Assembly: GCA_031761875.1 (NCBI GenBank)
Contig: CP134492.1
Location: forward strand, 558,001 to 622,000
Length of the DNA stretch: 64,000 nucleotides
Origin: Bacillaceae bacterium IKA-2
GTDB taxonomy: Bacteria; Bacillota; Bacilli; Bacillales; Anaerobacillaceae
Direction of reading: 5' to 3'
Shown here: positions 30,513-33,251 of the stretch, one piece after another
How the letters are laid out: each line of letters opens with the position of its first letter
How positions within the stretch are numbered: the stretch's first letter is position 1
Position numbers and translations under genes: made by a program
The notes under the pieces: model-generated
What the model was told of the DNA's origin: nothing
Seen by the model: the letters and a program-made list of their open reading frames with translations, nothing else
Databases searched by the model: none

Positions 30513-30551
30513 ATGACATAATAAGGCAGTAGTCTCGAATATAGACAAGGT

Positions 30552-30586
30552 AAAAGCCCGTCAATTAATTAATTGACGGGCTTTTT
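30552..30586. terminator. Terminator of htpX
   Basis: AAAAGCCCGTCAATTA pairs with TAATTGACGGGCTTTT, a perfect 16-bp stem followed by T. Confidence 0.93.
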
Positions 30587-30696: not shown

Positions 30697-31170
30697 TTAA
30701 GTAAAGATAATTTGACCACCAGCTGATATATCATAGAAGTCACCAACTGTGAGAATATCATCTAATTGATCGCAAAAGTCTTCTTTTTTTAGTTTAAACA
30801 TATCAACAGTAGCTAAACAAGCATAAACTTTCCCGCCAGCATCACTTATCATTTCAATAAATTCATCTATAGGAGGGATATCAAGGGTTTCCATTTGTTT
30901 TTTCATTTGACTAGTAGCGAAAGCTGACATTCCGGGAAGGGCTCCAATTAAAGTTGGAATTCCCATTGCTGGGTTACCAACAGTTGCTACTTTTATATTC
31001 TTCATTTTCTTCTTTACAATTGCATCCATTCCAAAGAAGGTAAAGAATACATTCACTTCAATTCCTTGCATTCTAGCACCATTTGCCATGATAAGACCAG
31101 GATAAATAGCTTCTAAAGATCCTTTTGAAATAACAATTGATATTTTCTTGATTTTTTCTTGTTCTGCCAT
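30697..31170 (-). CDS. DsrE/DrsH-like sulfur carrier protein
   Basis: A 157-aa DsrE2-type protein. The Rossmann-like DsrE fold starts with ISIVISKGSLEAIYPGLIMANGA, and the putative persulfide-carrying Cys stands in KVYACLATVDMF; a second Cys is in EDFCDQL. DsrE proteins pass sulfane sulfur between partners. It is the last gene of sqr-tusE-dsrE, 17 bp after the TusE-like gene, with AAAAAAGGAGG before the ATG. This context makes sulfur trafficking much more likely than a generic role. Direction of transfer and final acceptor are unknown. Confidence 0.88.
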   Translation of the reverse strand: MAEQEKIKKISIVISKGSLEAIYPGLIMANGARMQGIEVNVFFTFFGMDAIVKKKMKNIKVATVGNPAMGIPTLIGALPGMSAFATSQMKKQMETLDIPPIDEFIEMISDAGGKVYACLATVDMFKLKKEDFCDQLDDILTVGDFYDISAGGQIIFT

Positions 31171-31187
31171 GATTATAGCCTCCTTTT

Positions 31188-31502
31188 TTATACGCAGCTT
31201 GCTGGCTTGCTAAGCCCAGCAATTTTAGTCGCCTTTACAACGGGTCCTTCTGGAAATAAGCTATACAATACCTTTGTATCAATTCCACCAACTTTTTTCA
31301 TTCTTCTAATAGTAGGAACTTTCCCAGTTTCTTTAAAATCTTTTTGTAAGTAATCAATGATCGCCCAATGTTCGTCTGATAATTCCTGTTCTAATTCTTT
31401 TGCAATTTCAAGCCCAATTTCTTTCGTCCATTGAGACGGATCTGTTAAATAACCTTCTTCTGTTACACTTACATTAATTCCTGCAATTAGTTTTTCTGCC
31501 AT
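31188..31502 (-). CDS. TusE/DsrC-family sulfur relay protein
   Basis: A 104-aa protein with the complete TusE/DsrC fold pattern: DEEGYL-like EEGYLTDPSQW, LSDEHWAIIDYLQ, TIRRMKKVGG and the C-terminal arm FPEGPVVKATKIAGLSKPASCV in part. The penultimate Cys103 (CysA) is present, while the CysB position eleven residues before it is Thr, as in E. coli TusE. It should therefore carry a persulfide but not form the intramolecular disulfide of true DsrC. AAAGGAG upstream. Located between an SQR-like gene and dsrE in one operon. TusE/DsrC proteins are uncommon in Bacillaceae, which hints at horizontal acquisition. Confidence 0.92.
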   Translation of the reverse strand: MAEKLIAGINVSVTEEGYLTDPSQWTKEIGLEIAKELEQELSDEHWAIIDYLQKDFKETGKVPTIRRMKKVGGIDTKVLYSLFPEGPVVKATKIAGLSKPASCV

Positions 31503-31576
31503 TTTAAAAAACTCCTTTATAATTGATTTATATACAAAATCTAAAAAACTTAATAATAAAATTAACCGAGATTATA

Positions 31577-32812
31577 TTATGATAAATTTTTGCCACTTGT
31601 TTTCATGTGAGGGGGAACCGTTGGAATTGGAATGCCCTTCAGCAACATGTACCAATATATGTGTTTAAAAGCCATTTTTCCTAAATGATTAATCTTTGTT
31701 TCTTTCAATAAAGAGAATGGTCCGATTCCTGGAAGTGGAAAAGTTCCTTTAACAGGTTCTTGGTCGTAGTTAAAATCAATTAACAATGCTTTGTTGTAGC
31801 CTGATTCAATATAACAATTGGCATGGCCATCAAAATGAGCAGTTAGTGGTTTATTATTCATAAAGCTGATAATATTTTCTGTTAATATTTCTCCTGAAAA
31901 ATGTGCTACTGAACCTGCTTTTGAAGCTGGAATATCAGAGGCATCACCGATCACAAAAATATCTTCATGTGCTTTTGATTGTAAAGTGTGCTTATTTGTT
32001 GGAATAAAGTTTAACTCATCGCCTAATCCTGATCGTTCTATAAGTTCATCACCCATATTTGTCGGTATCGTAACTAGTAAATCATAATTGACTTCTTTTC
32101 CATCTAAAGAGACTAGCTTTCTTTGATCCGCTTCAACATGACTTACGTTAAAATTTGGAACGATCTCAATATTTTTTTCTGGAAAGAGATGACTAAGGAC
32201 ATCAGCACATTTTTGTTTTGTAAAAGCACTATTGAGAGGAGTAACAAACGTCAGCTCAACCTGATCTCGAATATTTTTCTTTTCTTTGAAAAACCAATCG
32301 GCAAGAAAGATAAATTCAAGAGGAGCAACGGGACATTTAATTGGCATTTCTGTTATATGGACAACTAATTTTCCACCTTGCCATGTTCTTAACTTATCTC
32401 TAAGTGCAACAGAGCCCTCAAAAGTATAGAAGTCAAAAATATCCTTTCTCCAACCATCACTAAGGCCTTCCGTTTCATCAGGAGCAATATCGCATCCAGT
32501 CGCAACAATTAAAATGTCATAGCTAATGGAAGTGGAGTCAGCGAGAACAACTCGCTTTGCGTCAGGATCGATTAAATCAATTGATGTTTGAATGTATTCA
32601 ACTTCTTTTGGAAGAAAATTTATTTTTGGTTTGACAACATCTTTTTCAGAATAAATGTCGAAAGGAATAAATAAGAAACCAGGTTGATAATAATGCTTTT
32701 CATGCTTATCGATAATGGTTATTTCCCATTCCTTTTTGTCAATCTTCTTAATAAGGTGATTTGCCATCATTGTTCCTGCTGTCCCAGCGCCAAGAATTAA
32801 AATCCTTTTCAT
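31577..32812 (-). CDS. Sulfide:quinone-oxidoreductase-like flavoprotein
   Basis: A 411-aa FAD-dependent oxidoreductase. The N-terminal dinucleotide motif is GAGTAGTMMA (residues 8-17), the second FAD motif ends in VFVIGDASDIPASKAG-like sequence at about residue 286-300, and redox Cys candidates are Cys160 (MPIKCPVAPLE, the SQR type) and Cys333 (HANCYIESG). A C-terminal amphipathic region could bind the membrane. It would oxidise sulfide to polysulfide and reduce quinone. The ATG at 32812 is chosen over the longer frame because GAGGCGG stands just upstream. First gene of the sulfur operon. Confidence 0.88.
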   Translation of the reverse strand: MKRILILGAGTAGTMMANHLIKKIDKKEWEITIIDKHEKHYYQPGFLFIPFDIYSEKDVVKPKINFLPKEVEYIQTSIDLIDPDAKRVVLADSTSISYDILIVATGCDIAPDETEGLSDGWRKDIFDFYTFEGSVALRDKLRTWQGGKLVVHITEMPIKCPVAPLEFIFLADWFFKEKKNIRDQVELTFVTPLNSAFTKQKCADVLSHLFPEKNIEIVPNFNVSHVEADQRKLVSLDGKEVNYDLLVTIPTNMGDELIERSGLGDELNFIPTNKHTLQSKAHEDIFVIGDASDIPASKAGSVAHFSGEILTENIISFMNNKPLTAHFDGHANCYIESGYNKALLIDFNYDQEPVKGTFPLPGIGPFSLLKETKINHLGKMAFKHIYWYMLLKGIPIPTVPPHMKTSGKNLS

Positions 32813-33039: not shown

Positions 33040-33067
33040 TGTGACCAAAATGTGAAATTATTGTGAA
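33040..33067 (-). promoter_or_regulatory. Three phased TTCACA repeats upstream of the sulfur operon
   Basis: On the plus strand TGTGAC, TGTGAA and TGTGAA start at 33040, 33051 and 33062, exactly 11 bp apart; on the minus strand they read (T/G)TCACA. Such helically phased hexamers resemble binding sites of OmpR-type regulators such as PhoP. They lie about 230 bp before the sqr start. Confidence 0.55.
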
Positions 33068-33251
33068 GGGAATATGAACGTTAGTAAACTTTCAAAAAAA
33101 GTAATTGAGGGACTAAAATTAAATTAGTTTGCCAATTGAGTAAGGATTGTATAATTTATAATTAATTGATTAATTGAAATTTCAAAAGTATGAAGTGTGG
33201 TTACGCTGAAGGGGTTGTATCAAGTGTAATGAGGAGTGTGCGGGAATTTAA

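Follow-up and report, generated by a model that had tools for sequence, protein, structure and literature searches.

What does a Bacillus-type bacterium do with a sulfide:quinone oxidoreductase (SQR) whose gene is followed at once by those of a TusE/DsrC-family and a DsrE-family protein? Here, we describe such a set of three genes (the trio) in a 64,000-nucleotide stretch of the genome of Bacillaceae bacterium IKA-2, referred to as the window. The trio is rare in Bacilli yet recurs as a unit in several bacterial phyla and, as far as its sequences can be read, we regard it as a fairly probable three-protein sulfide-oxidation module, in which sulfur from the SQR would be handed to dedicated DsrE/TusE carriers.

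Gene order and flanks

The three genes lie in order on the reverse strand: the SQR gene at 31577..32812 (ATG at 32812, stop at 31577; 411 aa), the TusE/DsrC-family carrier gene at 31188..31502 (104 aa) and the DsrE-family (PF13686) gene at 30697..31170 (157 aa). The tight spacing described in an earlier note on this DNA is borne out by gaps of 74 nt between SQR and TusE and 17 nt between TusE and DsrE, and purine-rich stretches resembling ribosome-binding sites (AGAGGCGG, AAGGAG and AAGGAGG) can be read 5' of all three starts. On one side the trio converges with htpX; a terminator-like hairpin read from the sequence between them (30551..30585, no strand assigned) is absent from the output of the hairpin/terminator scan. 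The other flank has a tRNA-Arg gene, a two-component pair and a transporter of the DcuA/B type. The neighbouring genes look unrelated to the trio.

Upstream of SQR, four TTCACA-like hexamers with 11-bp spacing (33040..33078, reverse strand) form a possible activator site that resembles those of PhoP or ResD. The quality of this array was matched by 0 of 2000 resampled sequences, a figure that applies to a motif picked post hoc, after being seen. As the array is missing from eight other Bacillota upstream regions, where L002 has one looser pair on the opposite strand, a regulatory site common to Bacillota trios was rejected. An insertion-site test through the htpX neighbours within the genus was likewise given up: the window is not syntenic with the flanks of the three relatives examined, and gain of the trio therefore cannot be told from loss. 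Plasmid spread was rejected, with all 112 matching PLSDB records below 60% identity, as was an anti-phage role, with no PADLOC hit. For some haloarchaeal plasmid SQR matches, the annotation at the matched position is DUF1641 or TusA.

The SQR protein

The window SQR scores 649.7 bits against NF049943 and so passes the curated cut-off of 525. This model covers the selenoprotein subtype of type III SQR, for which an HxxU motif is listed (PMC13188914, excerpt). The window protein is a Cys version, in contrast to the Sec of that subtype: its codon at C333 is TGT, and none of the 71 Bacteroidota-phylum and 6 class SQR matches over the cut-off has an in-frame stop. The HxxU motif fits H330-A-N-C333 of the window protein, and the selenium of the selenoprotein relatives would then occupy the sulfur-donating residue.

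Both C160 and C333 are invariant in an alignment of the best loci and the window (81/81 rows), and C107 is Cys in 11 of the 81. One of the SQR alignments made here has a surplus residue at the start of its window row. The earlier note had held, beforehand, that a lack of the essential Cys pair would count against a functional relay; the pair is present throughout. The closest solved SQR by sequence is human mitochondrial SQOR (6OI5, 8DHK and others; 203-206 bits). Its chain residues 161 and 339 are aligned with C160 and C333, respectively, and correspond to Cys201 and Cys379 by a hand-counted offset of 40. In SQOR, the sulfur acceptor attacks the Cys379 persulfide, and sulfur passes to GSH and other small acceptors (PMC11039317, excerpt), whereas the trio SQR adjoins two carrier genes. 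The window SQR probably strips electrons from hydrogen sulfide, with sulfide:quinone activity being predicted.

The two carrier proteins

The second protein belongs to the TusE/DsrC family (TIGR03342, 81.2 bits, cut-off 53.5; PF04358, 101.9 bits, cut-off 24.9) and is the only DsrC-family protein encoded in the window genome. CysA is its penultimate residue, C103, which is conserved in 78/78 readable rows of 79. The DsrC trisulfide requires a second cysteine, CysB, ten residues before CysA. The window protein has T there and is therefore not DsrC in the strict sense, and the 78 trio copies have Thr (45), Ser (19), Ala (12) or Cys (2) at this position, so that the description as a TusE-type protein with CysA only stands. 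Replacement of CysB by Ala, Ser or Thr is described where DsrAB is absent (PMC3397948, excerpt). Nor is the protein TusE in the strict sense, with 63.3 bits against the NF008562 equivalog (cut-off 191).

The third protein is a member of the DsrE superfamily (PF13686, 105.2 bits, cut-off 25), with C118 conserved in 77/77 rows and C133 being Cys in 15/77. It had been called DsrE2-type in the earlier note; the superfamily holds but canonical DsrE2 does not, since the protein reaches 107.8 bits against the NF047629 equivalog (cut-off 210). Two other PF13686 proteins of the window genome are likewise below this cut-off (102 and 100 bits). DsrE2 has two transmembrane helices (PMC12998232, excerpt), and by crude hydropathy no hydrophobic membrane segment is found in the window protein (top 19-residue mean 1.29).

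Distribution of the trio

Within the genus, 1/7 genomes has a DsrC-family gene, that of the window. The family is over the cut-off in 2/299 genomes of the order, 6/398 of the class (Bacilli) and 59/398 of the phylum. The same gene order of the trio is found in all six class genomes and in G037 of the order. An SQR over the cut-off of the model occurs in 6/299 class genomes, the same six that have DsrC.

To our knowledge, tRNA thiolation is general. The TusE-DsrE pair might supply biosynthetic sulfur, for tRNA 2-thiouridine or other thiolation, that is sulfide-derived instead of cysteine-derived, much as E. coli TusE is given its sulfur by TusBCD and has MnmA as an interaction partner (PMC3397948, excerpt); but carriers in 2/299 order and 6/398 class genomes are few for so general a process, the TusE equivalog score is 63 of 191 bits, and we consider this reading improbable.

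When named genomes were scanned with an alignment of seven SQR sequences, at least 546 relatives were confirmed, of which the best 80 loci were analysed, so that the near end of the family is sampled. Among these, 76/80 carry all three genes in order. L069, L085 and L110 stop at a contig end, and L092 is without carriers within 6 kb of SQR, its TusE-DsrE being located elsewhere in the genome, adjoining a FadL-type outer-membrane protein gene. By record title, the best 80 loci, mostly from metagenome-assembled genomes, span eight lineages: Bacillota, Bacteroidota, Marinimicrobia/Neomarinimicrobiota, Cloacimonadota, Verrucomicrobiota, Planctomycetota, Aminicenantes and KSB1. Bacteroidota account for most of the titles, and in the SQR tree the Bacillota rows and the window form one branch (support 100). 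The trio is thus not the Bacillus-type peculiarity that it had been taken for. The earlier note had also proposed a search of Firmicutes genomes and would have doubted a relay had no relative kept the trio, which is in fact conserved far beyond the window genome.

Over 77 sets, the three proteins have pairwise distances that correlate at 0.79-0.81, which common descent by itself might equally produce. The 124 DsrC-family rows of a tree include 85 trio copies, which form one side of a branch (SH-aLRT 86, from few columns). Clustering of the flanks of the best 80 loci gave no other family in more than 15/80, with only part of the clusters annotated. One cluster of 15/80 is a FadL/TodX-type outer-membrane protein gene near the trio (L071:8257-9549, L097:8117-9493 and other loci), which is also found in L156, outside the 80; the three members scanned are PF03349. 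This protein might admit hydrophobic sulfur. Repressor genes are found upstream of the trio, of the CsoR/CstR type in L042, which by general residue rules may encode a persulfide sensor, and of the ArsR family in L071 and L097 (58 and 63 bits, far under the BigR cut-off of 155).

Two kinds of DsrC and Dsr-type loci

Five Bacillota genomes (G690, G742, G807, G992 and G1030) have a canonical DsrC with CysB in addition to a trio copy without it. In the loci L012-L041, of about 3.3 kb each, the canonical copies have CysB in 30/30 cases and none of the loci holds a match to the DsrE protein. Nine weaker Bacillota copies were examined besides that of G037, further weak copies of G742 and G807 being left out; five are in trios and four are not (G714, G752, G932 and G776). 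Another DsrC-like group, ending AGLPNPxxCL and without CysB, occurs in three Bacillota genomes (L234, L235 and L236) without trio partners in 8 kb.

Among 287 genomes of the phylum Bacteroidota, 74 have a DsrC and 71 an SQR over the cut-off, with 69 having the two together. Copies of DsrC with 60-134.5 bits lie directly downstream of SQR on the same strand in 27/30 cases (36-836 bp between model edges; the count covers SQR and DsrC, not DsrE), as against 0/46 copies above 134.5 bits within 1.5 kb, both limits having been chosen after the data were seen. The count is of over-cut-off matches and leaves out two DsrC rows, the lower SQR rows of 60 genomes and seven DsrC fragments below 60 bits. 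The three remaining copies of the 30 are a second one in G1052, one in the fragmented genome G1067 and one in G1206, which is without an SQR over the cut-off. The gap exceeds 700 bp in 7/27, and such a gap holds a DUF1641 gene in four named loci. A DUF1641 gene stands between SQR and TusE in L082, L100, L102 and L114.

On a recount, an SQR on the same strand precedes five of the high-scoring DsrC copies, at distances of 1657, 1705, 1711, 1846 and 3488 bp. These five loci (L250-L254), which we take to resemble the Dsr loci of green sulfur bacteria, have a CobB-like gene between SQR and a two-cysteine DsrC, and in 4/5, among the listed frames, a DsrA-like gene after DsrC (sulfite reductase domains were found in L250, the one scanned). 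In L254 (genome G1223), the genes run in the order SQR, rhodanese, PF13686 DsrE, CobB-like, two-cysteine DsrC and DsrA-like. The loci are like the trio in having an NF049943-type SQR near DsrC, joined in L254 by DsrE and rhodanese, and differ from it in the two-cysteine DsrC, the DsrA-like gene and an SQR of about 500 bits on the trio profile; with 495-506 bits against 719-734 for six further Bacillota trios, the Dsr-locus SQRs are a separate branch. The association of SQR with DsrC, and once with DsrE, is therefore not unique to the trio, and proximity alone, here at 1.7-3.5 kb, is no proof of a trio-specific relay. In our view, these loci support a sulfur route through SQR, DsrE and DsrC, and the trio would be its Dsr-free form.

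Another reading, that TusE serves a sulfite reductase or an Hdr-like complex and the trio is the front end of dissimilatory sulfur metabolism, would accord with the DsrC-family membership of TusE, with the SQR, CobB-like, DsrC and DsrA-like genes of the presumed green sulfur bacteria and with the trio and canonical DsrC together in five Bacillota genomes. As CysB is absent from 76/78 trio copies and no second DsrC-family gene occurs in the window genome, we judge it improbable.

The proposed sulfur relay

In the favoured model, the SQR would oxidise HS- and reduce the quinone pool with two electrons, and the sulfane sulfur would stay as a persulfide on C333, the counterpart of SQOR Cys379. From there it would pass mainly to cytoplasmic carriers rather than to a small thiol, if the SQR faces the cytoplasm as we infer, with C118 of the DsrE-family protein as the first carrier and C103, in the C-terminal arm of TusE, as the second. 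Each transfer step, its direction and the final acceptor are putative. In Allochromatium vinosum (A. vinosum), persulfide is bound at DsrE Cys78 and DsrC Cys111, and DsrEFH and DsrC mobilised no sulfur from small persulfides (PMC3397948, excerpt). The presence of the corresponding cysteines in the trio, beside a producer of sulfane sulfur, favours the order SQR, DsrE, TusE.

The relay is further favoured by the ordered trio at 76/80 of the best 80 loci in eight lineages, by the 27/30 Bacteroidota copies just downstream of SQR and by the same six class genomes holding both SQR and DsrC. Invariant cysteines at the sulfur-handling positions, including both SQOR active-site cysteines, argue for it too, as do the retention of CysB in the canonical copy and its absence from the trio copy in five Bacillota genomes, the separation of trio TusE copies by a single branch (SH-aLRT 86, from few columns), the gene row of G1223, which looks like the same relay feeding Dsr, and the upstream repressors in L042, L071 and L097. 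Its main weakness is the orientation of the SQR: a periplasmic active site has been proposed for type III SQR (PMC13293266, excerpt), which would keep the enzyme from the leaderless carriers. It is also weakened by the separation of SQR from TusE-DsrE in L092 and by the TusE and DsrE2 scores below their equivalog cut-offs.

A broader proposal, which we make tentatively and hold to be somewhat doubtful, is that of a quinone-coupled sulfide oxidase with a dedicated protein-thiol pair as its physiological acceptor, a channelled and Dsr-free system that would replace glutathione-type acceptors in several phyla, with Bacillota that have a canonical DsrC keeping a separate CysB-less copy.

Relation to known systems

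A conserved SQR with two one-thiol carriers is a direct candidate for the system that accepts SQR sulfur in bacteria poor in glutathione. The trio might account for many of the DsrC-family genes that occur where a Dsr pathway is lacking, and it warns that dsrC or dsrE matches in heterotroph genomes are not evidence of Dsr. A. vinosum DsrEFH-DsrC and E. coli TusBCD-TusE (PMC3397948, excerpt) share with it DsrE- and DsrC-family partners with equivalent cysteines; the trio differs in having one PF13686 protein versus three subunits, no CysB, and carriers that adjoin SQR instead of IscS/TusA or DsrAB.

In Bacilli, SQR-based sulfide detoxification is known, as in B. licheniformis sqr-pdo, and the yrk/sqr-pdo cluster and cst operon likewise join SQR to sulfur carriers; the excerpted text names no TusE/DsrC, and PDO is adjacent there but not at the trio (PMC9918477, excerpt). 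The path is therefore less unusual for Bacilli than the earlier note had it, and the rarity lies in the combination of this SQR type with TusE and DsrE. The open-access literature matches listed, as far as their excerpts go, give no description of the trio; papers outside the open-access set may mention it, for instance the 2014 DsrC review to which PMC12345210 refers.

Possible sulfur sinks

A search for TusA and rhodanese genes elsewhere in the window genome, as had been suggested, gave 9 TusA and 29 rhodanese matches. About 1.4 Mb from the trio, a cluster of about 12 kb holds TusA-rhodanese fusions, three PF13686 ORFs (two identical) and two metallo-beta-lactamase-rhodanese fusions, which we take to be PDO-like; none of the window-genome fusions of the latter kind reaches the curated Blh model. 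These TusA and rhodanese proteins and persulfide-dioxygenase-like fusions would probably receive the sulfur next, and the relay suggested in the earlier note, which is the best reading of the trio, therefore need not end at TusE.

The same genes are compatible with a looser arrangement, in which the SQR frees soluble persulfide or polysulfide and DsrE and TusE later buffer sulfane sulfur and feed a dioxygenase, with no direct hand-off. SQR and PDO together oxidise sulfide to sulfite in B. licheniformis (PMC9918477, excerpt), and SQR and carriers can be unlinked, as in L092. Since A. vinosum DsrEFH and DsrC failed to mobilise small-persulfide sulfur (PMC3397948, excerpt), and no other flank family exceeds 15/80 of the best 80 loci in clusters that are annotated in part, so that a PDO gene may still lie elsewhere, we think this arrangement unlikely, and a direct transfer from SQR to the carriers remains the preferred reading.

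In the window genome, a block with genes for a PF13686 DsrE, a TusA-rhodanese, a TusA-like protein and a metallo-beta-lactamase-rhodanese fusion is found as a tandem near-duplicate (L150:9452-15227; about 2.014-2.020 Mb of its contig C1). This block lies within a larger yrk-like cluster, in which SulP-like and carbonic-anhydrase-like genes were named by eye.
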